Source: Prevotella sp. (GTDB lineage Bacteria > Bacteroidota > Bacteroidia > Bacteroidales > Bacteroidaceae). Taken from it: 64,000 nt of DNA. Positions 225-63,528 of the stretch are shown in pieces. The stretch's first letter is position 1, and the number at the start of each line of letters is the position of its first letter. The notes beneath the pieces are model-generated. The model had not been told where the DNA came from. It ran no database searches and was given only the letters and a program-made list of their open reading frames with translations. The DNA lies in NCBI GenBank assembly GCA_017442825.1, contig JAFRYZ010000064.1:1-64000 (forward strand), read 5' to 3'. Both the position numbers and the translations under genes were made by a program.

Positions 225-254
225 ATGCCGATTCCTTTTAAACGGTACAAAAGT

Positions 255-1295
255 ATGAAAAAAATCTTTATCGGCATCGATTTTTCCAAGGAAAAGTTTG
301 ATGCGACGGTCATCAAGGCCGAGGGAGTCGAGGAGCGTGCAGAGAGACAGCACGAAGTGTTTGACAACAAGGTAAGCGGTTTCCGCCGCCTTCTCAGATG
401 GGTGAAGTCCGTTGCTGATGAGCCTGATGCAGGGCTCTGGCTGTTCTGTGGAGAGAACACAGGCGGCTACAGCAGGGCGCTGTGCAACTACCTCTATGGA
501 AGCGGCTACGACATGTGGCTGGAGAATGCGCTGAGTATCAAGCGGAGCTATGCCCTGCAGCGTGTCAAAAGTGACAAAGCTGACGCTGGTGTTATCGCAG
601 AGTACGCCATGCGAAACTACGATCAGATGCGCTTGTATAAGCCTCTGGGAAATAACCTGGAGCGTTTGCGTGAAGTGTTCCTCTACCGCCACAACCTTGT
701 CAAGACGAAGGCCTCCATGACCACGAGAAGGGGTGAAAAGAAACTGACCCAGGAGAAATCCGACATCAGCCGTTTCATGGCACAGAGCAGTAGACACCTC
801 ATCAGTGAGTTCAACAAGAAGATTGCGGAATGCGACAGGAGAATACAGGAAATCATTGCCGGGGACGAAGACCTGCGCAGGAACTTCGAGATCATCACCT
901 CCGTGCCTGGTGTGGGAACGCAGAACGCGGTCTGCCTGATGGTGTACACGGATAACTTCGGGCGGTTTGACTATAACTCACGAAAGATTGCCTGCTATTA
1001 TGGCGTGGCTCCGTTTGGAAGACGATCCGGAACCAGTGTGAACACACCCCCGCATGTAAGTCCGTTCGCCAACAAACTCATCAAGGCACTGCTGACACAG
1101 GCCGCGCTGGCATCGGTCAATTTCTGTCCGCAGATGGCTGTCTACTACAGAAGGCTTGTCGATGCGGGAAAGAAGAAGCCTGTGGCGGTCAATAACGTAA
1201 AAAATAAACTGCTGCACATCATTACAGCTATGATTAGAAAAGGAGAAAGATACAACCCGGATCACGACTATTATGCAGCACTAAAGGTGGCATGA
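255..1295 (+). CDS. IS110 family transposase (DEDD recombinase)
   Basis: Recombinase of the IS110 family, which inserts and excises the element with RNA guidance. Numbered from Met at 255, the N-terminal RuvC-like domain begins with IGIDFSKEK (Asp9, first catalytic acid). Further acidic motifs are the Glu of LFCGENTGG and the Asp in KSDKADAG. The C-terminal Transposase_20 domain carries SVPGVGTQNA and YYGVAPFGRRSGTSV, with the serine region used as nucleophile. The length of about 346 residues is normal. An upstream ATG at 225 would add ten residues, but it overlaps the end of the candidate bridge RNA and MKKIFIGID is the usual family start. The frame is intact, so the element may be active. 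Confidence 0.93.
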   Translation: MKKIFIGIDFSKEKFDATVIKAEGVEERAERQHEVFDNKVSGFRRLLRWVKSVADEPDAGLWLFCGENTGGYSRALCNYLYGSGYDMWLENALSIKRSYALQRVKSDKADAGVIAEYAMRNYDQMRLYKPLGNNLERLREVFLYRHNLVKTKASMTTRRGEKKLTQEKSDISRFMAQSSRHLISEFNKKIAECDRRIQEIIAGDEDLRRNFEIITSVPGVGTQNAVCLMVYTDNFGRFDYNSRKIACYYGVAPFGRRSGTSVNTPPHVSPFANKLIKALLTQAALASVNFCPQMAVYYRRLVDAGKKKPVAVNNVKNKLLHIITAMIRKGERYNPDHDYYAALKVA

Positions 1296-2431: not shown

Positions 2432-3640
2432 ATGCCTGAGATATCAATACGCGGACTTGAAATGCCGGAGTCACCCATTAGGAAACTTGCTCCGCTGGCT
2501 GCTGCAGCAAAGAAAAGGGGGACAAAGGTTTATCACTTGAACATCGGTCAGCCTGACTTACCTACGCCAAAATGCGGATTGGATGCCTTGAAGAGTATCG
2601 ACCGTGATGTATTGGAGTATTCGCCAAGTCAAGGTTATTTGAGTTACAGAGAGAAGTTGGTGGGATATTATGCAAAATATAATATCAACGTGACTGCCGA
2701 TGACATCATCATCACCAGTGGCGGCTCAGAAGCGGTGCTGTTTGCCTTCATGAGTTGTCTGAATCCTGGTGACGAGATTATCGTTCCGGAACCTGCCTAT
2801 GCCAACTATATGGCGTTTGCCATTTCTGCCGGAGCCAAGATTCGTACCATTGCAACAACGATAGACGAAGGTTTCTCGCTGCCAAAGGTTGAAAAGTTTG
2901 AAGAACTCATCAACGAGCGTACGCGAGCCATTATGATTTGCAATCCGAACAACCCGACGGGCTATCTTTATACACGCAGGGAAATGAATCAGATTCGCGA
3001 CTTGGTCAAGAAATATGATTTGTATTTGTTCTCCGACGAAGTCTATCGCGAATATATCTACACGGGCTCACCGTATATTTCAGCCTGCCACTTGGAAGGT
3101 ATCGAACAAAACGTAGTACTTATCGACTCGGTGTCGAAAAGATATTCGGAGTGTGGTATCCGTGTAGGAGCCTTGATAACGAAAAACGTCGCCATCAGAA
3201 AGGCCGTGATGAAATTCTGTCAGGCTCGCCTCTCCCCTCCCCTTATCGGTCAGATTGTAGCAGAAGCATCGTTGGATGCACCTGAAGAATACTATCGTGA
3301 TGTGTATGACGAATACGTAGAGCGCCGTAAATGTTTGATTGACGGACTGAACCGCATTCCTGGTGTCTATTCTCCTATTCCCATGGGTGCTTTCTATACG
3401 GTGGCAAAACTGCCTGTTGATGACAGTGAGAAGTTTTGCCGCTGGTGTCTGGAGGAATTCAGTTACGAGGGCGAGACGGTAATGATGGCACCAGCTGCAG
3501 GTTTCTACACCACACCCGGTGCGGGTGTCAACCAAGTGCGTATCGCCTATGTGCTGAAGAAAAAAGATTTGGAGCGTGCGCTCTTGGTCTTGCGTAAGGC
3601 TTTGGAGGAATATCCTGGACGCGTTGAGGAGAATTCTTAA
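2432..3640 (+). CDS. PLP-dependent aminotransferase, class I/II (aspartate-aminotransferase-like)
   Basis: Fold-type I aminotransferase of 402 residues, the usual length for the family. The cofactor-binding lysine is K236 in the motif DSVSKRYSECGIRVG. Also visible are the substrate/PLP motifs NPNNPTGYLYT and FSDEVYREYIY, and a C-terminal arginine in NQVRIAYVL. The N-terminus MPEISIRGLEMPESPIRKL is typical of the Bacteroidetes subgroup annotated as aspartate aminotransferase; substrate preference cannot be read from sequence. It has its own strong promoter. The stop codon runs directly into a heptamer array that ends at the start codon of the next gene, so the two genes may be co-transcribed across the array. 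Confidence 0.9.
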   Translation: MPEISIRGLEMPESPIRKLAPLAAAAKKRGTKVYHLNIGQPDLPTPKCGLDALKSIDRDVLEYSPSQGYLSYREKLVGYYAKYNINVTADDIIITSGGSEAVLFAFMSCLNPGDEIIVPEPAYANYMAFAISAGAKIRTIATTIDEGFSLPKVEKFEELINERTRAIMICNPNNPTGYLYTRREMNQIRDLVKKYDLYLFSDEVYREYIYTGSPYISACHLEGIEQNVVLIDSVSKRYSECGIRVGALITKNVAIRKAVMKFCQARLSPPLIGQIVAEASLDAPEEYYRDVYDEYVERRKCLIDGLNRIPGVYSPIPMGAFYTVAKLPVDDSEKFCRWCLEEFSYEGETVMMAPAAGFYTTPGAGVNQVRIAYVLKKKDLERALLVLRKALEEYPGRVEENS

Positions 3641-3714
3641 TTCACAATTGACAATTGACAATTCATAATTCACAATTCACAATTCATAATTGACAATTCA
3701 TAATTAAAAATTGA
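3639..3714. repeat. AATTNNN heptamer array filling the gap
   Basis: Eleven consecutive 7-base units (AATTCAC, AATTGAC, AATTGAC, AATTCAT and so on) begin on the last two bases of the aminotransferase stop codon and run, without a phase break, to the start codon of the permease. It is the only sequence between the two genes. Confidence 0.9.
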
Positions 3715-4962
3715 ATGTCGTTTCCTCTTTTTCTTGCACGGAAGATATATGCCAGCGATGCCGATAAGAATATGGTGTCGCGACCTGCTGTACGCATAGC
3801 TACGATGGGTGTAGCTGTGGGTTTGGCGGTGATGATTATCAGCGTATGCGTGGTATTGGGATTCAAACACACAATTCGTGACAAGGTTATCGGATTTGGC
3901 AGCCATATTACTGTTGCAGATTATATGACGATGCAGACTGCTGAACAGTATCCCATACAGATGGGAGACTCTATGATGAGGGTTCTGCGAGGCATCGAGG
4001 GAGTGAAGCACGTGCAACGCTATGCTTTGAAACAGGGAATCTTGAAAACCGACGATGATTTTCTTGGTGTGATGCTCAAAGGAGTTGGTCCAGACTACGA
4101 TTCAACCTTTATCCACAAGAATCTGATAGCTGGGCGAATCCCCCTTTTCTCAGAAAAGAAAAGTCAGCAGAAACTAGTCATTTCACAAACTATGGCAGAC
4201 AAACTGAAGCTAAAATGCGGTGACAGGGTGTTTGCCTACTTCATCAACAACGAGGGTGTTAGAACACGCCGTTTCTCCATCGAAGGTATTTACCAAACCA
4301 ACTTACAACAATATGACGAATCGGTGTGCCTGACGGACATCTACACCGTAAACAAACTGAACGGATGGGAACCCGATCAATATAGCGGTGCAGAACTGAC
4401 CGTGAATAACTTCAACAACCTGGACGAAACGGCACATCATATTATAAATAAGGTGAACCGCACCGAAGACCGATATGGTGGCACCTATTCGGCTCAAACG
4501 GTGACAGAAATGAATCCACAGATATTCTCTTGGCTCGACTTGATGGACCTGAACGTGTGGATGATTCTCGCGCTGATGGTAGCCGTTGCGGGTGTGACCA
4601 TGATCTCAGGACTACTTATCATTATTCTTGAACGTACCCAAATGATTGGTATTCTCAAGGCCCTCGGTTCACGCAACAGACAGATTCGCCACACATTCCT
4701 CTGGCTTGCTGTCTTCATCATCAGCAAAGGACTCTTCATAGGCAACATTCTGGGCTTGGGACTCATCATTCTTCAGCATTATACGGGTTTGGTGAAGCTT
4801 GAACCATCTAAATATTATGTAGCCACCGTTCCTGTTGAATTGAATATACCTTTTATTATTGCTTTGAACGTTGCCACATTGGTAATCTGTATTTTAGTAC
4901 TCATTGCACCCAGCTATCTCATTTCCCACATCCATCCTGCAAAATCTATATCTTATGAATAA
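3715..4962 (+). CDS. FtsX/LolE-type ABC transporter permease
   Basis: Inner-membrane permease subunit of 415 residues in the MacB/LolCE/FtsX superfamily. The order is: N-terminal membrane helix (about residues 20-45, TMGVAVGLAVMIISVCVVLG), a large periplasmic MacB-type domain (about 50-270), then three C-terminal helices (about 275-305, 325-350 and 370-395). Conserved phrases include GILKALGSRNRQIRHTFLWL and SYLISHIHPAKSISYE, the latter typical of LolC/LolE ends. The best guess is a lipoprotein-release or related export permease. No ATPase gene adjoins it, so the partner must be encoded elsewhere. It is separated from the preceding gene only by a heptamer array. Confidence 0.85.
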   Translation: MSFPLFLARKIYASDADKNMVSRPAVRIATMGVAVGLAVMIISVCVVLGFKHTIRDKVIGFGSHITVADYMTMQTAEQYPIQMGDSMMRVLRGIEGVKHVQRYALKQGILKTDDDFLGVMLKGVGPDYDSTFIHKNLIAGRIPLFSEKKSQQKLVISQTMADKLKLKCGDRVFAYFINNEGVRTRRFSIEGIYQTNLQQYDESVCLTDIYTVNKLNGWEPDQYSGAELTVNNFNNLDETAHHIINKVNRTEDRYGGTYSAQTVTEMNPQIFSWLDLMDLNVWMILALMVAVAGVTMISGLLIIILERTQMIGILKALGSRNRQIRHTFLWLAVFIISKGLFIGNILGLGLIILQHYTGLVKLEPSKYYVATVPVELNIPFIIALNVATLVICILVLIAPSYLISHIHPAKSISYE

Positions 4963-11217: not shown

Positions 11218-11610
11218 ATGAAAAAAGGAATCATTCTGTTAGTTGGTGTCGCTATGCTTACTGCTTGTCATGAGAGCTTAGAAGAACGAGCTGAGCGCGA
11301 AGCCAAAGAGTTTACTGAAAAGAACTGTCCGACGCCCGTGAGAGAAAACACACGCACCGACAGCCTTACCTACGACAAAGAAAGTCGTACTATAGGTTAC
11401 TGGTACACCCTCTGCGGTCAAGCCGACAATGCAGAAGCTATCGAGGCAGATAAAGAAAAACTGGTTGGAATCCTCCGCAACGAGCTAAAGGCTTCTACAC
11501 AAATGAAAGCCTACAAGGATGCCGGTTTCGGAATCAGGTATGTCTATCATTCAGAGAAGAATCCTCAACAGGTATTGTTAGATGTTGTTTTCTCGGAAAA
11601 AGACTACTGA
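11218..11610 (+). CDS. Small lipoprotein of unknown function
   Basis: Predicted lipoprotein of 130 residues. The signal [17 protein letters not shown] ends in an LTAC lipobox, so the mature protein would start at Cys17 and be anchored to a membrane. The mature part is charged, begins with a short helical acidic/basic stretch ([19 protein letters not shown]) and contains one further cysteine (LCGQADNAE), with beta-rich sequence at the end ([21 protein letters not shown]). I do not recognise a named family. A TATCTTTG -7 element at 11179-11186 lies 31 bases upstream of the ATG. It is divergent from lepA and is followed by a tandem duplication. Confidence 0.75.
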
Positions 11611-11675
11611 TTCCTTCAGCAACACATTTCATTCTAATGAAATTCCTTCAACAGCACATTTCATTCTAATGAAAT
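11611..11675. repeat. 32-nt tandem duplication with two hairpins
   Basis: Two adjacent 32-base copies (11611-11642 and 11643-11674) differ at only two positions. Each contains the palindrome ATTTCATT-CT-AATGAAAT (11626-11643 and 11658-11675). It sits directly after the lipoprotein stop codon and may contribute to transcript end formation. Confidence 0.85.
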
Positions 11676-11684
11676 CAGGAACAC

Positions 11685-11722
11685 AAAAAACAAAGGGATG
11701 CACAAGTTTGTACATCCCTTTG
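11685..11722 (-). terminator. Terminator of the TSCPD gene
   Basis: CAAAGGGATG (11691-11700) pairs with CATCCCTTTG (11713-11722). Read on the minus strand the hairpin follows the TSCPD stop codon by two bases and is followed by a run of six T, a classic intrinsic terminator. It would also face transcripts of the lipoprotein gene. Confidence 0.8.
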
Positions 11723-17598: not shown

Positions 17599-17706
17599 AA
17601 GGCTTATAGAGGTCTATAGGGTCTATAAAGTCGATTAAGTCTATAGCATCTATAGCATCTATAGTATCTATAGTATCTATAGCAGTCTATAGCAGTCTAT
17701 AGCACT
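17599..17706. repeat. TCTATAGCA 9-10-mer array between convergent genes
   Basis: The whole gap between two stop codons consists of TCTATAGCA, TCTATAGTA and TCTATAGCAG units. About seven are regular (17639-17706), preceded by looser copies. Units contain the palindrome CTATAG. No hairpin terminator was recognised, so the array may be all that separates the two transcripts. Confidence 0.85.
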
Positions 17707-19329
17707 CTACTGCCCAGCTGAAAGATACTCGCCGCAGGCATCGGCACAACGTTCTCCGTCGATGCCTGCAGATACAATACCGCCGGCATAACCTGCACCT
17801 TCGCCACAAGGAAAGAGTCCCGTAATGCGAACATGTTGAAGGGTTGACGCATCGCGAACAATACGTACGGGGGCACTCGTTCTTGTTTCTATGGCAATCA
17901 TCACCGCTTCGTTGGTCAAAAATCCATGAGCCTGCTTTCCGAAAGTTTTGAAACCCTCCTGCAGACGTTTGGAAATGAAAGGAGGCAACCAGAAATGCAA
18001 AGGACTTGAGATTAAACCTGGCGAATAGGAACTCTTCGGAAGATTGTAGGAAAGGCGACCATTCACAAAATCTACCATTCGCTGGGCTGGTGCCGTTTGT
18101 TTCATGTTGCCTTGTTGCCACGTCAACCGTTCCAAATGCTCCTGAAAGCGAAGCATCGCAAGCGCCTTTTCGGCTTCGCCGGAAATTCCGGTTATTCCGG
18201 TTCCTCCGGGCATTCCGGGGTTTCCGGTTCCTCCGGGCATATCGGAAAGGTCCTCTGGTCTGACCTCTACCACCATTCCGCTGTTACTCCATTGCGTACC
18301 GCGGTTTGACGGCGACATTCCGTTCACCACAAGCTGTTCAGCACCCGTCGCAGCCGGAATGACAAATCCTCCCGGGCACATACAAAACGAATATACACCT
18401 CTACCCTCGACCTGGGTTACAAAAGCATATTCCGCTGCAGGTAAGTATTTTCCTCTACCCTCTTTGCGATGGTATTGAATCTGGTCGATAAGTGCTGCCG
18501 GATGTTCCAGTCTGACACCCACCGCAATCCCTTTCGCCTCAATTTCTATTTTCGCTTCTGCCAAATAACGATAGACGTCACGAGCACTGTGGCCTGTCGC
18601 TAAAATAACGGGACCGCGAAACGCTCTGTCGCCAGCCTCACAACCCACAATGGTATCTCCTTGCAGAAGCAGTCTCGTCATCTTAGTCTGGAAATGGACC
18701 TCTCCGCCACATTTTAATATGGTGTTGCGCATGTTTTCAATCACCCTTGGCAACTTGTCCGTACCAATGTGCGGATGGGCATCAGCAAGAATATTTACCG
18801 ATGCCCCATGTTGGCAGAACACATTAAGAATTTTCCTGACATTACCGCGTTTCTTTGAACGGGTATAGAGTTTACCGTCGGAATAGGCTCCAGCACCGCC
18901 CTCGCCGAAACAATAGTTGCTTTCTTCATCTACCCGTTGCTCTTTAGCGATGCGCGCCAAGTCCTTCTTGCGCTCATGCACATCTTTGCCGCGTTCCAGC
19001 ACAACGGGTTTCAGTCCTAACTCGACGAGTCTCAGGGCGGCAAACAAACCACCTGGACCAGCTCCGACAACCACCACCTGCGGAGCATTGCTCACATCGC
19101 GGTATTCGGTCTTCTCATAGGCTTCTTCTTGAGGAAATTCGTTGACATACACACATACATTCAAGTTGACGTATATCGTACGATGGCGGGCATCGACCGA
19201 GCGTTTCAACACCCGGACCGCCTTAATGGTACGAGCATCAAGTCCCTTCTCGCGTGCCACGGATTCGCAGATGGTTTGCTCTGTAGCTGCCTGTTGTGGC
19301 AGAAGGCGTAGTTGGCATTCTATTCTCAT
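17707..19329 (-). CDS. FAD-dependent oxidoreductase (COG2509-type)
   Basis: Predicted flavoprotein of about 540 residues. The dinucleotide-binding motif VVVGAGPGGLFAALRLVELG lies near residue 85. It is followed by FGEGGAGAYSDGKLYTR and, at the C-terminus, GLFPCGEGAGYAGGIVSAG, both characteristic of this uncharacterised dehydrogenase family. An N-terminal domain of about 80 residues (VARDALDARTIKAVRVLKRS-like) is usual for the group. The start at 19329 (MRIECQLRLL) removes an unlikely 18-residue extension. Anomaly: residues encoded by 18185-18238 are a collagen-like run of Xaa-Xaa-Gly triplets, produced by an in-frame nonamer array and probably a surface loop. The substrate is unknown. Confidence 0.88.
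   Translation of the reverse strand: MRIECQLRLLPQQAATEQTICESVAREKGLDARTIKAVRVLKRSVDARHRTIYVNLNVCVYVNEFPQEEAYEKTEYRDVSNAPQVVVVGAGPGGLFAALRLVELGLKPVVLERGKDVHERKKDLARIAKEQRVDEESNYCFGEGGAGAYSDGKLYTRSKKRGNVRKILNVFCQHGASVNILADAHPHIGTDKLPRVIENMRNTILKCGGEVHFQTKMTRLLLQGDTIVGCEAGDRAFRGPVILATGHSARDVYRYLAEAKIEIEAKGIAVGVRLEHPAALIDQIQYHRKEGRGKYLPAAEYAFVTQVEGRGVYSFCMCPGGFVIPAATGAEQLVVNGMSPSNRGTQWSNSGMVVEVRPEDLSDMPGGTGNPGMPGGTGITGISGEAEKALAMLRFQEHLERLTWQQGNMKQTAPAQRMVDFVNGRLSYNLPKSSYSPGLISSPLHFWLPPFISKRLQEGFKTFGKQAHGFLTNEAVMIAIETRTSAPVRIVRDASTLQHVRITGLFPCGEGAGYAGGIVSAGIDGERCADACGEYLSAGQ
18185..18238 (-). repeat. In-frame nonamer array coding collagen-like triplets
   Basis: Six 9-base units on the plus strand: ATTCCGGTT, ATTCCGGTT, CCTCCGGGC, ATTCCGGGG, TTTCCGGTT, CCTCCGGGC. 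They encode Gly-Xaa-Xaa triplets (read MPG, GTG, NPG, MPG, GTG, ITG on the minus strand). The array lies inside the FAD oxidoreductase gene. Confidence 0.9.
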
Positions 19330-19499: not shown

Positions 19500-22031
19500 A
19501 TGAAAGTTTTAAAATTCGGCGGAACATCCGTTGGTTCCGTCAAAAGCATTCTGAGCTTAAAACACATTGTAGAGAACGAGGCTAAAAAGCAGCCTGTCGT
19601 TGTTGTAGTAAGTGCCCTCGGTGGTATTACAGACAAGCTGATAGAGACCTCATGTTTGGCACAACAGGGTGATGAACATTGGAAGAATGAGTTCGATGCT
19701 ATTGTCGACCGTCACCATCAGATGATAGATGCCGTCATCACCGACACACGCGACCAGGAAGTATTATTTAATAAGGTGGATGCCCTGCTGGAACAGTTAC
19801 GTTCCATCTATTTTGGTGTCTATCTCATCCATGATCTGAGTCGTAAGACGCAAGATGCCATCGTTTCCTACGGTGAGCGTCTTTCGTCAAACATTGTCGC
19901 TACACTGATACGAGGTGCCAAGCGCATGAATGCCCGCGACTTTATTCGTACGGAATGGAAAAACGGAAAGAACTCATTGGATGCTGAGTTGACTTACCGG
20001 CTGGTTAGGGAACATTTCCTGGAGAGTCCGGAATCGGATTCTTTAAAGCACCGCGTCAACGTGGTTCCGGGATTCATCTCCCGCGACAGAGACTCTATGG
20101 AGACGACAAACTTAGGACGTGGAGGAAGCGACTATACAGCCAGCATCATTGCTGCGGCGCTCGGTGCCGACGTGCTGGAGATTTGGACCGATGTAGATGG
20201 GTTCATGACGGCAGACCCGCGAGTCATCAAGACGGCTTACACCATCAACGAACTCTCTTATGTCGAGGCGATGGAGCTCTGCAACTTCGGTGCAAAAGTC
20301 ATTTATCCGCCTACCATCTACCCCGTATGCGTCAAGAATATCCCTATCAGGGTAAAGAATACTTTCAATCCCGAACATCCGGGTACGCTCATCAAAGACC
20401 ATATTGACAACGACCGCAAACCCATCAAAGGTATTTCCAGTATCAAGGGAACCACGCTGATTACCGTTACCGGCTTGGCTATGGTGGGCGTCATCGGTGT
20501 CAACCAGCGCATCTTTACGGCTTTGGCATCCAACGGCATCAGTGTCTTCATGGTGGCGCAGGCATCGTCAGAGAATTCAACATCTATCGGTGTGCGCGAC
20601 GAAGATGCTCCTGATGCTGTAAGGGTACTCAACGAGGAATTTGCCAAGGAGATAGAGACGGGCGCCATGTTCCCTATGCATGCAGAAAGTGGACTTGCCA
20701 CTATTGCCATTGTGGGCGAGAATATGAAGCACACGCCGGGTATTGCCGGAAAACTCTTTGGAACACTCGGTCGCAGTGGTATCAGCGTCATTGCCTGTGC
20801 TCAGGGTTCTTCGGAAACAAACATCTCGTTTGTCGTCGATTCAAAATTCCTGCGCAAGTCGCTCAACGTACTACACGATTCGTTCTTCCTTTCTGAATAC
20901 AAGGTACTCAACCTCTTCATCTGCGGAGTGGGAACGGTAGGAGGCAAACTCGTCGAACAGATACGAAACCAATATGAGGAACTGAAACAACGCAACGGTC
21001 TGAAACTGAATGTGGTGGGAATCGCCAGTTCTAAGAATGCCATTTTCGACCGCGACGGCATCGACCTGAATCATTACCGCGAACAACTGAAGGCTTCTGA
21101 ACCCAGCTCGCCGGAGAAACTGCGCGAGGATGTGCTCAACATGAACATCTTTAACTCGGTTTTCGTTGACTGTACGGCATCGAAAGATGTGGCTGCCCTC
21201 TATCAGACTTTCCTCGAGCACAATATTTCCGTAGTCGCAGCCAACAAAATTGCTGCCTCGTCGGAATACGACAAGTATATCGAACTGAAACAGACAGCGC
21301 TCCGGCGTGGCGTCTTCTTCCGTTTTGAAACCAACGTTGGTGCAGGATTGCCTATTATCGGCACCATCAACGACCTGAGAAACTCAGGCGACCAGATTCT
21401 GAAAATCGAAGCTGTTCTCTCTGGAACTCTGAATTTCATTTTCAACGAAATTAGTGCAGAGGTTCCGTTCTCCGAAACTGTACGTCGTGCCAAGGAACAA
21501 GGCTATTCTGAACCAGATCCGCGTATTGACCTCAGCGGAAAGGATGTCATCAGGAAACTTGTCATTCTCACTCGTGAAGCTGGGTACAAGGTGGAACAGG
21601 AAGATGTGGAGAAAAATCTTTTCGTACCCGATGAGTATTTCGAAGGTTCGGTGGATGACTTCTGGAAGAAACTGCCCCAACTCGATGCCGACTTTGAAAC
21701 ACGCCGCAACCGTTTGGAAAAAGAAGGCAAACGATGGCGTTTCGTGGCGAAGATGGAAATGATTCCTTCCTCTGGTGCTGTTGCGGATTCAGAAAAGATG
21801 CAAACAGCCTACGACAGCAAAAATAGAGAAATGCTTTGCAAGACCAGCGTTTCCCTTCAGGAAGTGGCAAGTAACCATCCTTTCTACAACCTGGAAGGAA
21901 GCAACAACATCGTCCTGCTCACAACTGAGCGCTACAAAGAATATCCTATGCAGATTCAAGGCTATGGTGCTGGCGCCAGCGTTACGGCAGCCGGCGTCTT
22001 TGCGAATATTATGAGTATTGCTAATATCTAG
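19500..22031 (+). CDS. thrA: Bifunctional aspartokinase / homoserine dehydrogenase
   Basis: Catalyses the first and third steps of the aspartate pathway toward threonine. 843 residues. The N-terminal aspartokinase domain (about 1-290) starts MKVLKFGGTSVGSVKS and includes GRGGSDYTASIIAAALGADV. Two ACT regulatory domains follow (about 310-470; AMVGVIGVNQRIFTALASNG and IAIVGENMKHTPGIAGKLF). The homoserine dehydrogenase domain (about 480-843) has the NAD(P) motif LFICGVGTVGGKL, VAANKIAASS, NVGAGLPIIGTINDLRNSGD and ACT-free catalytic region PDPRIDLSGKDV. It is the first gene of the operon with a homoserine-kinase candidate and thrC. The stop codon is part of the ATCTAGAAT array. Confidence 0.97.
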   Translation: MKVLKFGGTSVGSVKSILSLKHIVENEAKKQPVVVVVSALGGITDKLIETSCLAQQGDEHWKNEFDAIVDRHHQMIDAVITDTRDQEVLFNKVDALLEQLRSIYFGVYLIHDLSRKTQDAIVSYGERLSSNIVATLIRGAKRMNARDFIRTEWKNGKNSLDAELTYRLVREHFLESPESDSLKHRVNVVPGFISRDRDSMETTNLGRGGSDYTASIIAAALGADVLEIWTDVDGFMTADPRVIKTAYTINELSYVEAMELCNFGAKVIYPPTIYPVCVKNIPIRVKNTFNPEHPGTLIKDHIDNDRKPIKGISSIKGTTLITVTGLAMVGVIGVNQRIFTALASNGISVFMVAQASSENSTSIGVRDEDAPDAVRVLNEEFAKEIETGAMFPMHAESGLATIAIVGENMKHTPGIAGKLFGTLGRSGISVIACAQGSSETNISFVVDSKFLRKSLNVLHDSFFLSEYKVLNLFICGVGTVGGKLVEQIRNQYEELKQRNGLKLNVVGIASSKNAIFDRDGIDLNHYREQLKASEPSSPEKLREDVLNMNIFNSVFVDCTASKDVAALYQTFLEHNISVVAANKIAASSEYDKYIELKQTALRRGVFFRFETNVGAGLPIIGTINDLRNSGDQILKIEAVLSGTLNFIFNEISAEVPFSETVRRAKEQGYSEPDPRIDLSGKDVIRKLVILTREAGYKVEQEDVEKNLFVPDEYFEGSVDDFWKKLPQLDADFETRRNRLEKEGKRWRFVAKMEMIPSSGAVADSEKMQTAYDSKNREMLCKTSVSLQEVASNHPFYNLEGSNNIVLLTTERYKEYPMQIQGYGAGASVTAAGVFANIMSIANI

Positions 22032-22070
22032 AAAATCTAGAATATCTAGAATATCTAGAATATCTAGAAA
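22026..22070. repeat. ATCTAGAAT nonamer array
   Basis: Five exact 9-base units (ATCTAGAAA, three ATCTAGAAT, ATCTAGAAA). The first contains the thrA stop codon TAG at 22029-22031. The array ends 23 bases before the next start codon. Confidence 0.92.
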
Positions 22071-27607: not shown

Positions 27608-27638
27608 CGTTCTTATTGTTTTTTATTGTTCAACTTCT

Positions 27639-27701
27639 TTCAATGTTGTTATTATCGTTTTCTATATCTTTTCAATGATGTTATTTACGTTTTCTGTATT
27701 C
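27639..27701. repeat. 32-nt tandem duplication at the amidase 3' end
   Basis: Copies starting TTCAATG at 27639 and 27671 (period 32) share most of their bases, including TGTTATT and CGTTTTCT. The second copy encodes the last residues and the stop codon of the amidase; the first lies downstream in the sense of that gene. Confidence 0.8.
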
Positions 27702-29851: not shown

Positions 29852-29893
29852 AATTATCAATTATCCATTATGAATTGTGAATTGTCAATTCCC
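29852..29893. repeat. AATTNNN heptamer array between pyk and the NrdJ-like gene
   Basis: Six 7-base units (AATTATC, AATTATC, CATTATG, AATTGTG, AATTGTC, AATTCCC). The array begins one base from the start codon of the NrdJ-like gene and runs through the pyk stop codon (29885-29887), so it fills the gap completely and encodes the last two residues of pyruvate kinase. Confidence 0.9.
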
Positions 29894-31364: not shown

Positions 31365-31396
31365 CAAAGGTAATCATTTAATTGATAATTGACAAT
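31365..31396 (-). promoter_or_regulatory. pyk promoter using array sequence as -33 element
   Basis: TACCTTTG (complement of 31365-31372) with ATTG (complement of 31393-31396) 20 bases upstream. The ATTG belongs to an AATTGAT heptamer, so the array appears to supply the -33 box (three of four bases match). Confidence 0.55.
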
Positions 31397-31527
31397 TGAT
31401 AATTGATAATTATGACTCATTTAACATTCAATACCGATTTTTACGACTATGAATTGTCAATTGTGTAATCGCGAAGCGCTTTGCTTGCAAAGAATTGTCA
31501 ATTGTCAATTGCGAATTAGCGCGAAGC
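31382..31527. repeat. Heptamer arrays and two GCGAAGCGC hairpin elements
   Basis: AATTGAC/AATTGAT/AATTATG units at 31386-31412 and AATTGTC/AATTGTG/AATTGCG units at 31451-31465 and 31493-31513 alternate with two copies of a CGCGAAGCGCT-containing element (about 31470-31490 and 31513-31527). It occupies most of the 195-base gap between pyk and the next gene. Confidence 0.75.
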
Positions 31528-32014: not shown

Positions 32015-32065
32015 AATATGAATTGTGTTTCGAGTTTGCTCGCTTACAGAGCATAGCGACGCAAA

Positions 32066-32107
32066 AATTATGAATTATGAATTGTCAATTTTGAATTGAA
32101 AATTGTT
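32066..32107. repeat. AATTNNN heptamer array reaching into the patatin gene
   Basis: Six units: AATTATG, AATTATG, AATTGTC, AATTTTG, AATTGAA, AATTGTT. The patatin stop codon is at 32085-32087, so the last three units encode its C-terminal residues (FSIQN). Confidence 0.88.
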
Positions 32108-41672: not shown

Positions 41673-41820
41673 TTCTTTCAGTCGCTACTCTTTGTGAAAG
41701 CGAGCAAGTTCGAACGAGAGTTGAAAGTTGAAAGTTCTTTCAGTCGCTTCGCTTGGTGAAAGCGCTTCGCGATTAGAGAGATGAGAGTGTTAATTGTGAA
41801 TTATGAATTGTGAATTAAAA
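41673..41820. repeat. Two hairpin elements plus AGTTGAA and AATTGTG heptamers
   Basis: Hairpin copies at 41675-41700 and 41737-41762 share stem CTTTCA/TGAAAG and 14-base loops (the second GTCGCTTCGCTTGG). AGTTGAA heptamers lie at 41720-41733 and AATTGTG/AATTATG heptamers at 41792-41819, which end at the helicase start codon. Confidence 0.8.
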
Positions 41821-41822
41821 AT

Positions 41823-43370
41823 ATGTATTTTGACGAACTAAAACTAAACGATAATGTATTGGACGCTCTCGAAGACATGCACTTCGAGACTTGTACGCCC
41901 ATACAAGAGAATTGTATTCCACCGATCCTCGAAGGCCGAGATGTCTTAGGTATCGCACAGACAGGAACAGGAAAGACTGCAGCCTATCTGCTGCCCGTAT
42001 TGAGTATGCTCGACGACGGAGGCTATCCCGAAGATGCCTGCAACTGTCTGATTATGGCACCGACACGCGAACTGGCACAACAAATAGACCAAGCCATGCA
42101 GGGATTCAGTTACTATCTGCAAGGCGTCAGCAGTATTGCCGTTTATGGCGGCAACGACGGCAACCGCTACGACCAAGAACTGAAAAGTCTGACAATGGGT
42201 GCAGACGTTATTATTGCAACACCCGGACGTCTCATCTCACACATGAGTCTGGGCAATGTTGACTTCAGCAAAGTGTCGTTTTTCATTCTCGACGAGGCTG
42301 ACCGTATGCTCGACATGGGTTTCTCCGACGACATCTTGAAAATTGCACAAACGCTGCCACCTACCTGTCAGACCATCATGTTCTCGGCTACGATGCCCGA
42401 CAAGATAGAAGAACTGGCAAAATCACTTCTGAAGAATCCCATAGAAGTGAAGATTGCCGTCAGCAAACCCGCAGAACGAATACAACAGCAAGCCTACATC
42501 TGCTATGAGACTCAAAAACTGGGTATCATCAAAAACATCTTTCAAGCTGGTGACCTGAAACGCGTCATCATCTTTTCGGGAAAGAAAACAAAAGTGAAGC
42601 GCATCTGCGGAGCCCTCGGCCGATTGGGAATCAATAGCGGTGAGATGCATTCCGACTTGTCACAAGCAGAACGCGATGAGATGATGTACCGCTTTAAGAG
42701 CGGACAAATAGATGTGCTCGTGGCTACCGACATTTTGTCGCGAGGAATCGACATCGACGACATCACAATGGTCATCAACTATGATGTGCCCCACGATCCG
42801 GAAGACTATGTACACCGTATAGGAAGAACGGCACGAGCCGACCGTGCAGGTAGTGCCATCACTTTCGTAAGCCCCGAAGACTTTATCTTCTTCCAACAGA
42901 TAGAACGTTTCTTGGAAAAGGAGGTGGAAAAAGCTGCGATGCCCGAAGAACTGGGAGAGGCTCCAGAATACAAGATTTCCAAGAAAAGCACGTCTGCCAA
43001 AAACCGCCGACGCAAAGACCGCGACAACAATGCCCATCGTCACAAGCCTCATAATGATGGTCAAAGGGCGAAGGTCAAAGGGCAAAGGTCAAAAGCTGAT
43101 GAACTAGCATCAAAGGTCAAAGGTCAAAGGTCAAAAGCTGATAAGGCTGATAAAGCGGAAAAGGCTCAACCTGTAGCAACTCCTGCAACTGCTGCCAAGA
43201 AAAAGAAGCACCGCAAGAAGACTGTACGCCAAGCGCCCGAAAGTGCTCTACCCAGCAATTCTACCAAATATGCTGTACGAGAAGAAATGGCAGTAACAGA
43301 TAAAGGAAAAGGGAAAGGCCTGAAAGCCATCATTAAGAAACCATTAAACTGGTTGAAAAAACATTTCTGA
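41823..43370 (+). CDS. DEAD-box RNA helicase
   Basis: ATP-dependent RNA helicase of 515 residues, RhlE-like. Motifs in order: Q motif (CTPIQENCIPPI), I AQTGTGKTAAYLLP, Ia PTRELAQQI, II DEAD in ILDEADRMLDMGF, III SAT in MFSATMPDKI, then IV, V ATDILSRGIDIDDI and VI HRIGRTARADRAG. The C-terminal tail from about 390 is Lys/Arg-rich, disordered, and contains repeated VKGQRSKAD units that come from an in-frame TCAAAGG heptamer array. The tail probably gives non-specific RNA binding. The role (ribosome assembly or mRNA decay) cannot be fixed from sequence. Confidence 0.95.
   Translation: MYFDELKLNDNVLDALEDMHFETCTPIQENCIPPILEGRDVLGIAQTGTGKTAAYLLPVLSMLDDGGYPEDACNCLIMAPTRELAQQIDQAMQGFSYYLQGVSSIAVYGGNDGNRYDQELKSLTMGADVIIATPGRLISHMSLGNVDFSKVSFFILDEADRMLDMGFSDDILKIAQTLPPTCQTIMFSATMPDKIEELAKSLLKNPIEVKIAVSKPAERIQQQAYICYETQKLGIIKNIFQAGDLKRVIIFSGKKTKVKRICGALGRLGINSGEMHSDLSQAERDEMMYRFKSGQIDVLVATDILSRGIDIDDITMVINYDVPHDPEDYVHRIGRTARADRAGSAITFVSPEDFIFFQQIERFLEKEVEKAAMPEELGEAPEYKISKKSTSAKNRRRKDRDNNAHRHKPHNDGQRAKVKGQRSKADELASKVKGQRSKADKADKAEKAQPVATPATAAKKKKHRKKTVRQAPESALPSNSTKYAVREEMAVTDKGKGKGLKAIIKKPLNWLKKHF
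43061..43137 (+). repeat. In-frame TCAAAGG heptamer array in the helicase tail
   Basis: Eleven 7-base slots in phase: TCAAAGG, GCGAAGG, TCAAAGG, GCAAAGG, TCAAAAG, two divergent slots, then TCAAAGG three times and TCAAAAG. TCAAAAGCTGAT follows the run each time, so a block was duplicated. It encodes the QRAKVKGQRSKAD-type repeats. Confidence 0.92.
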
Positions 43371-43394
43371 TAATTCACAATTCAAAATTAACGA

Positions 43395-62503: not shown

Positions 62504-62578
62504 TCTAGGATTATCTAGGATTATCTAGGAATTTCTAGAGTTTCTAGAGTATCTAGAGTATCTAGAGTATCTAGGGTT
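62504..62578. repeat. TCTAGGATTA / TCTAGAGTA 9-10-mer array
   Basis: Three 10-base units (TCTAGGATTA twice, TCTAGGAATT) then five 9-base units (TCTAGAGTT, TCTAGAGTA three times, TCTAGGGTT). It ends 20 bases before the RluA stop codon, in the gap before the small membrane protein. Confidence 0.92.
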
Positions 62579-62597: not shown

Positions 62598-63482
62598 TCA
62601 AAATAGCTGACGGAAGGCAGTTGGTATAGGGGTTTCGAACTCCATGGGTTCGTGGGTTACAGGATGGTAGAAGCAGAGCAGGAAGGCGTGCAGGCAGAGT
62701 CGGTGCAGCGGGTCGTCGCCGTTGCCATATTTTACATCGCCGCAAACAGGATGCTTCATGTCAGCAGCATGAACGCGAATCTGGTTCTTGCGTCCCGTCT
62801 CCAGTCGGAACTCCACCAGCGAACGACCGTCCTTGCGGTCTAAAGTGAAGAAGTGGGTGACTGCATATTTTCCGCCATTGTCCACCGGTGACGAATAAGT
62901 GACGTACGCCTTGTTGTCTTTCAGCCAGTTGGCGATGGTCCCCTCGTCCGGCTCCACCTCACCACTGAGCACCGCCACATAACGGCGGTCAAAGACAATC
63001 TGGTGCCATTCATGTTCGAGCACCTGTTCCGTCTTCATGTCCTTAGCATAGATCATCAGTCCGCTGGTGTCGCGGTCCAGTCTGTGCACGACGTGCGCCC
63101 TGCACTTTTGGTGCGTCTTCTGAAAATAGTCGTCGAGCACAGCCTTGACATTCAACGCCCTGTGTCCTCCCGCCATAGAGAGAATGCCTACATTCTTCTC
63201 AATGACCACGATGTACGGGTCTTCATAGACAATCTTCAGGTAGCGGCTTTTGAACACGTCGTTCTTCTTCGTCGTGCTCACCGAAACCTTCATACCAGGC
63301 TGCAAGGCAAAGTCGAACTGCGTGACCACCTTGTCGTCCACCTTGATGCCCCTGCCCTGCAGCGTAGCCTTGGTTTTCGACTTACTTTGTCCGAGGTGGT
63401 TCAGCAACCACTCCAAGAGCGGTGCCTCCTCTTTCACAACGTAATGGGTGTATCGCTCCCTGTTGTATTCATTTGTTCTCAT
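62598..63482 (-). CDS. RluA-family pseudouridine synthase
   Basis: Isomerises uridines in rRNA or tRNA. About 294 residues from ATG 63482; a TTG at 63494 adds four residues. An N-terminal S4-like RNA-binding region (about 20-85, EWLLNHLGQSKSKTKATLQGRGIKV) precedes the catalytic domain with VIEKNVGILSMAGG, the signature AHVVHRLDRDTSGLMIYAKD (catalytic Asp), and KNQIRVHAADMKHPVCGDVKYG near the end. Site specificity is not known. The first residues (MRTNEYNRERY) are encoded by sequence related to the 32-nt duplication upstream. Confidence 0.94.
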   Translation of the reverse strand: MRTNEYNRERYTHYVVKEEAPLLEWLLNHLGQSKSKTKATLQGRGIKVDDKVVTQFDFALQPGMKVSVSTTKKNDVFKSRYLKIVYEDPYIVVIEKNVGILSMAGGHRALNVKAVLDDYFQKTHQKCRAHVVHRLDRDTSGLMIYAKDMKTEQVLEHEWHQIVFDRRYVAVLSGEVEPDEGTIANWLKDNKAYVTYSSPVDNGGKYAVTHFFTLDRKDGRSLVEFRLETGRKNQIRVHAADMKHPVCGDVKYGNGDDPLHRLCLHAFLLCFYHPVTHEPMEFETPIPTAFRQLF

Positions 63483-63528
63483 TTGTACGAGCAAAGATAT
63501 TCGTTTGTTCTCATTTGTGCGAGCAAAG
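63472..63528. repeat. 32-nt tandem duplication in the RluA 5' region
   Basis: TTTGTTCTCATTTGTACGAG plus CAAAG at 63472-63496 recurs at 63504-63528 with a single change (A to G), exactly 32 bases on. The promoter -7 element starts in the second copy; the first copy overlaps the RluA start codon. Confidence 0.9.

Follow-up and report, generated by a model that had tools for sequence, protein, structure and literature searches.

The question raised by this locus is how the space between two adjacent genes comes to be filled, from the end of the first to the start of the second, by a seven-base tandem repeat. In the window (the whole stretch of Prevotella sp. DNA that was analysed, 64,000 nucleotides in length), a gene for a class I/II aminotransferase is followed on the same strand by one for an FtsX/MacB-type permease, presumably LolC/LolE-like, and the presence of a seven-base array between the two is confirmed (Table 1). 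By its aminotransferase, the source genome has rumen Prevotella and Xylanibacter as its nearest named relatives (best 80 of 586 encoded relatives). Genes were called throughout by the author's own hexamer scoring of open reading frames, with no published gene finder.

The aminotransferase stop codon (TAA) lies at 3638-3640 and the permease ATG at 3715, a spacing of 74 bases. The first-pass annotation counted eleven AATTNNN units from the stop codon to the ATG, which holds from position 3639, where ten full units are followed by one cut short, the triplets after each AATT being CAC, GAC, GAC, CAT, CAC, CAC, CAT, GAC, CAT, AAA and GA. The in-phase run, however, begins one unit earlier, at 3632, so that its first two units overlap the last aminotransferase codons and the stop codon, which is therefore inside the array. 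Tandem Repeats Finder detects the array both as 3639-3705 with period 7 (9.6 copies, score 92) and as 3632-3714 with period 21 (score 110), and runs of at least three AATTNNN units were absent from 100 first-order Markov windows. RNA of the array folds no better than shuffled sequence (z +1.1), and the array contains no GC-rich module and shares no flank with other arrays.

Table 1. Repeat arrays, GC-rich modules and genes flanking the array under study, by position in the window
Feature	Position	Strand	Remarks
AATTNNN array, 12 in-phase AATT cores	3632..3715	+	Begins in the last two aminotransferase codons, includes the stop and reaches the permease ATG
Upstream gene, class I/II aminotransferase (402 aa, Pfam PF00155)	2432..3640	+	Stop codon within the array
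Downstream gene, FtsX/MacB-type permease, 415 aa (PF02687 and PF12704)	3715..4962	+	
AATT array, pyruvate kinase gene to next minus-strand gene	29852..29890	-	Kinase stop TGA inside the array
AATT array, half of an inverted pair	31380..31411	+	AATTSAY orientation on +
AATT array, other half of the pair with 31380..31411	31493..31517	-	AATTSAY orientation on -
AATT array, 6 cores	32066..32104	-	Contains the stop of the upstream gene
AATT array, 4 cores	41792..41816	-	Antisense to flanking + genes
Three-unit AATT run, helicase stop to next gene	43372..43392	+	
GC-rich palindromic module CTTTGCAAGCAAAGCGCTTCGCGATTA	31466..31492	-	Flanked by AATT and the next three variable bases
GC-rich module, type ending GCGAGCAAACTCGAAACA	32026..32065	-	Abuts the 32066..32104 array; boundaries by eye
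GC-rich module GTTCTTTCAGTCGCTTCGCTTGGTGAAAGCGCTTCGCGATTA	41734..41775	+	Upstream of the 41792..41816 array

Heptamer arrays in the source genome

The further AATT arrays to which the first-pass annotation drew attention in the window were all found, those at 31380-31411 and 31493-31517 in opposite orientation, although the gaps around 32066-32104 and 41792-41816 hold GC-rich modules as well and are therefore not pure array. Arrays also extend beyond the window, as that annotation expected. In the source assembly, a draft of 2.31 Mb in 69 contigs that is 79% complete, four AATTNNN units followed by AATT give 147 overlapping matches whereas the reversed pattern gives none, and AATT arrays of at least four cores number 41 in 709 kb, or some 31% of its length. 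When period-7 arrays of any sequence are counted in the same 709 kb, 54 are intergenic (in 82.7 kb of such DNA) and 16 lie in coding sequence (620 kb). The period exceeds composition controls, since 37 intergenic period-7 arrays were present in 464 kb as compared with none in 20 order-3 Markov replicates, and the largest excess of intergenic self-matching over shuffles falls at lag 7 (z 13), lags 3, 6 and 9 being inflated in this analysis by coding remnants where gene starts were called too late. Neither result that the first-pass annotation named as refuting its view, a period-7 signal no stronger than in shuffled AT-rich gaps or arrays confined to the window, was obtained. The source genome thus holds seven-base tandem units beyond chance expectation, at many loci and mostly in non-coding DNA, as do the intergenic heptamers of the LSSR class. 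Gaps between co-directional genes, for which the first-pass annotation raised the idea of a preference, are not favoured (28 of the 41 AATT arrays vs. 277 of the 399 gaps of at least 20 bases).

The units of the AATT arrays read AATT[C/G]A[C/T] (AATTSAY). In 40 oriented arrays comprising 186 units, position 5 is C in 87, G in 86 and another base in 13, position 6 is A in 180, and position 7 is C in 106, T in 76 and another base in four; the near fixity of positions 1-4 proves nothing because the search pattern demanded AATT. Exchange of C and G is a rare mutation. Adjacent units have the same letter at position 5 in 89 of 118 cases (59 expected) and at position 7 in 53 (61 expected). Among the 40 arrays, four-unit strings common to different loci number 10 as against 13 expected, and five-unit strings none as against 1.1. 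With no excess of strings between loci, the arrays draw on a small pool of variants and are not copies of one another; ectopic copying of whole arrays was rejected as unsupported by such strings.

Other repeats accompany these arrays. The source genome also has heptamers of the GAGAGTT, GGTTCCA, AAGGTCA and CCTTAGA types, together with arrays of 8- to 12-base units. Within the window, a period-7 GGTCAAA array is found in the coding sequence of a DEAD-box helicase, near its C-terminal end (43059-43135), and a second period class is seen in nine-base arrays whose core is CTATAG or CTAG, located within gaps or next to them (17640-17709, 22023-22069 and 62512-62574). Three 32-base tandem duplications at 11610-11685, 27638-27699 and 63466-63528 differ in sequence, and an IS110-family transposase (PF01548 and PF02371) occupies the left end of the window (225-1295). 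Elsewhere, seven arrays of a ten-base CCTAGGANNN-like unit lie in several gaps of L156-L172 (source genome C1 and C5), the unit consisting, as in the AATTNNN family, of a palindromic core with variable bases, and arrays of the eleven-base units GTTAAAGGGGA / GGGAGTTAAAG, with as many as 17.5 copies, are present at L175:7512-7703 and L175:10500-10561. Of 399 gaps in the source genome, 19 contain the 12-mer ATCGTACCTTTG or its complement. This 12-mer includes a promoter-like TAnnTTTG box; by eye, some divergent arrays lie between two boxes of this type.

The same junction and favoured units in relatives

The aminotransferase-permease junction was compared in 110 cases (109 loci and the window), of which 101 (100 relatives and the window) were kept; L051, L060, L062 and L067 were left out as identical to others, and five further junctions because they had no adjacent permease or an implausible overlap. 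Of 398 genomes, two were unscored. The genes overlap or abut in 28 of the 101 junctions, mostly by 4 bases (ATGA or GTGA), another 23 have a gap of less than 15 bases without an array, 25 contain a period-7 array and 25 another gap. With so many junctions that are overlapping, abutting or nearly so, exact placement of the array does not call for targeting, one of the mechanisms entertained in the first-pass annotation. The units of the junction arrays vary and include AATTGTC, AGTTGAA, GTTCAAC, TTAARTG, GTTTACA, TTCAAAN and CATTGAM, among others. Among the 57 gaps of at least 10 bases, period 7 was found in 25, period 8 in three, period 9 in two and period 10 in one, while periods 4-6 and 11-13 were found in none; dinucleotide-shuffled gaps gave 0.52 period-7 arrays on average and at most three (100 trials). 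A heptamer array also occupies this gap in Xylanibacter ruminicola Ga6B6, the record of which is not labelled as a MAG. On a quick tree of both genes (100 rows, one junction being too short; 26 of 97 inner branches open), array presence requires at least 22 changes, so its recurrence is evident at the level of the tree.

Three close pairs of junctions differ by whole units, as do copy-number variants of the LSSR class. L109 has a 4-base overlap, whereas its sister L055 (about 90% identical) has 28 bases more, made up of four AGTTGAN units, and in both loci AGTTGAA is also found where the upstream gene ends, in its last codons. This difference probably reflects gain rather than loss, but as the gap in L124, the next relative of the two, is 27 bases long, the change may instead have been a loss in L109. 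The difference at the junction is 21 bases between L069 and L103 and 14 bases between L095 and L098, and apart from these three junctions, the eight pairs compared show indels of various lengths. The gap of L075 and that of L143 contain different heptamers, the two loci being 94% identical around the junction. When 4 is added to gap length, the sum is divisible by 7 in 8 of 25 array gaps (one-sided p 0.019, post hoc), as compared with 5 of 25 gaps without an array.

Judged by comparison of their sequences, genomes favour their own units. In 150 genomes, a number that includes the source genome here unless otherwise indicated, AATTSAYx4 was detected in 74 (73 of the 149 congeners besides the source genome), with 116 matches in the source genome and 118 in G126. 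AGTTGARx4 was detected in 34 (21 matches each in G034 and G096, 7 in the source genome) and TTAARTGx4 in G044 only; the backward controls for these last two patterns are uninformative, being themselves heptamers of these families (5 and 7 matches in the source genome). The TTAARTG family is found at seven loci of G044, three of them inverted pairs, the orthologous junction being among these. AATTSAYx4 is rare in other Bacteroidota, being present in 17 of 295 genomes from outside the genus, and the places listed show mostly a single unit repeated. When the array gaps of five genomes are compared in pairs, agreement at six or more of the seven unit positions has a frequency of 0.301 within and 0.098 between genomes (permutation p below 0.001), although only 19 of the 76 gaps come from relatives; for the four relatives alone, the values are 0.200 within (n=50) and 0.066 between (n=121).

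Origin of the arrays

The explanation preferred here, with a probability of roughly 0.6, is that the arrays arise by 7-base tandem duplication (slippage) at tight junctions, combined with spread or reuse of the unit that the genome favours. A heptamer array would arise at a tight co-directional junction by repeated 7-base tandem duplication, through replication slippage or template realignment. Where the duplication spans the junction, the stop codon would be retained in the first copy and the start codon in the last, so that the gap would grow by sevens and consist entirely of array, and the array would run exactly from stop to start because little else had occupied the junction. Copy number would then shift unit by unit, and arrays may be lost or replaced. 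Among the placement mechanisms that the first-pass annotation left open, slippage is the best supported for growth, and would be the likely enzymatic step, but some spread of units is needed in addition, and selection for spacer DNA is unsupported.

Slippage alone explains neither the AATTSAY spectrum, with position 6 nearly always A and position 5 C or G, nor the presence of one unit at dozens of loci; because one degenerate unit recurs throughout the genome, a step beyond slippage is needed. It is proposed that a second process repeats one unit family, in the source genome AATT[C/G]A[C/T], at many loci, perhaps involving copying between loci, and that GC-rich palindromic modules enter or accompany some arrays in phase. 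Local seeding was considered as the sole origin of the arrays and rejected; it fits L055 and L099 but does not account for the presence of AATTSAY at dozens of loci or for L047, the TTAARTG unit of which occurs at seven loci of its genome.

The modules are also the basis of a rather unlikely alternative, in which the arrays belong, as ends or as hosts, to a mobile element of the REP/MITE type that is dispersed through intergenic DNA, and it is mobility, not slippage, that places them between genes. In the source genome, the module core GCGCTTCGCGATTA is found in 15 of 44 gaps with at least three AATT units vs. 14 of 355 others (Fisher 1e-8), and two of three other modules are likewise enriched in array gaps (7/44 vs. 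3/355 and 6/44 vs. 8/355), although the remaining one is not (3/44 vs. 8/355, p 0.11). Of the core hits, which number 47, eight are flanked on both sides by AATT units, and in each of these the module lies, by inspection, between AATT and the three following bases and in phase, yet 36 of the 47 are without an AATT pair within 45 bases upstream. Many arrays have flanks that are alike beyond the array itself, and inverted array pairs are present in 12 of 151 gaps holding arrays of period 7-11 in five genomes, but the array at 3632-3715 has neither a module nor a common flank, and GC-rich modules also occur inside unrelated heptamer families (GAGAGTT-type and CCTTAGA-type arrays). A RAYT/REP origin was rejected, there being no Y1_Tnp/RAYT gene in the source assembly (79% complete), whereas such genes are present in 39 of 59 relatives (20 of 35 congeners). 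An RNA hairpin function for the modules was set aside as well, since, though palindrome-rich by eye, they fold no better than shuffles (z -0.2 to -1.2), and the window contains no Rfam family at gathering scores.

A further reading, in which a Prevotella process both makes and disseminates the arrays, is regarded as unlikely; it would join a fixed 7-base enzymatic step (a polymerase slip or terminal copying) with a pool of a few unit variants, maintained by each genome and written into junctions, and modules inserted exactly between the constant and variable parts of units. Were it true, the arrays would constitute a rapidly rewritten, species-marking layer of intergenic DNA.

It is quite improbable that selection maintains the units as binding sites or leader sequences, i.e., as regulatory heptamers of the kind suggested for TAACTGA in Beggiatoaceae. 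The narrow unit spectrum at positions 5-7 would suit such a role, as would several biases in the source genome, where 22 of 28 co-directional arrays have AATTSAY on the sense strand (p 0.004), the upstream stop codon is touched by 17 of the 28 vs. 9.9 expected (p 0.003) and only one of 41 arrays lies in a convergent gap (p 0.011-0.014), although these counts are not fully independent because several arrays occupy one gap. The downstream start codon, however, is touched by only 5 of the 28 (9.9 expected), and the same junction in relatives contains other heptamers or none. When one array was taken from each of 21 other genomes (19 usable, since two lacked a gene on one flank), six of the ten co-directional arrays read in sense, 2 of 10 touched the stop codon and 2 of 19 were in convergent gaps. 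A general law of orientation and stop-codon bias was therefore discarded, as it was not clearly repeated in the single arrays of other genomes, and for this reason no function is built on these biases. Of the 28 co-directional arrays of the source genome, 12 include the upstream stop codon within their own sequence, and the arrays seem mostly to be tolerated spacer able to supply stop codons, no dedicated function being proposed. An origin by chance in AT-rich sequence between genes, or through faulty assembly of a single metagenome bin, to which a draft in 69 contigs might be prone, is refuted by the absence of reversed-pattern matches, the absence of arrays from 20 Markov replicates, the detection of AATTSAYx4 in 73 of 149 congeneric genomes and the array in the Ga6B6 gap.

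Relation to known heptameric repeats

STRR are heptameric tandem repeats of heterocystous cyanobacteria with units that differ from AATTSAY. The resemblance to cyanobacterial heptamers noted at first pass is apt, although the host here is not a heterocystous cyanobacterium, its nearest named relatives being Prevotella and Xylanibacter (best 80 of 586). The units of the window array are AATTSAY, not TAACTGA. TAACTGA repeats are placed just upstream of start codons; the window array abuts such a codon, as do 5 of 28 co-directional arrays of the source genome (9.9 expected).

Long simple sequence repeats have units of 5-11 bp, heptamers being the commonest class in most genomes surveyed, and slippage has been proposed in which 7 nt is the length that contacts the polymerase (Mrazek et al., 2007, via PMC4679880 and PMC4692102). 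The present analysis differs in following one junction across 101 loci, with pair differences of 7n bases and genome-specific units. TAACTGA direct repeats are described from Beggiatoaceae, Cyanobacteria and five Bacteroidetes (MacGregor, 2015; PMC4679880), a group for which the first-pass annotation was aware of no account of such arrays. Like the arrays described here, they are intergenic heptamers at many loci in some genomes, patchily distributed among species, with relatives that have shorter, array-free gaps (PMC4679880). TAACTGA, however, is one fixed unit, whereas AATTSAY has two variable positions and related genomes have many other units; TAACTGA repeats are also mostly just upstream of start codons in the main genome studied (PMC4679880), whereas in the source genome upstream stop codons are touched more often than start codons. 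Heptamers have been reported in xanthomonads and Calothrix, and the GGGAATC/GGGGA(C/T)T heptamers of Xanthomonas and Nostoc are G-rich and quadruplex-forming, in contrast to the AT-rich arrays here (PMC4692102). In the (GATAGRA)n satellites of Chloroflexus, too, a single degenerate heptamer recurs at many loci within a species; by term search, the text of that paper mentions neither Prevotella nor Bacteroidetes (PMC6749651).

Among the open-licence PubMed Central papers listed, none was found to describe AATTSAY arrays, nor heptamers specific to individual Prevotella genomes. Heptamer arrays as such, including those of five Bacteroidetes, are already published; the junction comparison, the genome-specific units and the in-phase modules appear to be new. 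Why heptamers dominate the long simple repeats of bacteria is an old question, for which a junction present in hundreds of Prevotella genomes and refilled with different heptamers constitutes a natural experiment, allowing the birth, growth and replacement of arrays to be scored on a tree and making the 7-base step measurable in cultured strains.

Other intergenic repeats of Bacteroidales are of different dimensions. The BrickBuilt minisatellite MITE of Porphyromonas gingivalis is intergenic and has a tandem core with inverted-repeat ends, but its units are of 23 bp and not heptamers (PMC4596501), and PINSR of Prevotella intermedia has a 188-bp unit (PMC4755523). An element that is MITE-like by eye occurs in G044, where two closely similar copies with inverted AGTTAAAGG nonamer ends are located at L190:1300-1470 and L194:13030-13220. 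The orthologous gap of L138 contains GACTATTGTCTT, a portion of the core of this G044 element, and similar nonamers are found in the gap of L085.
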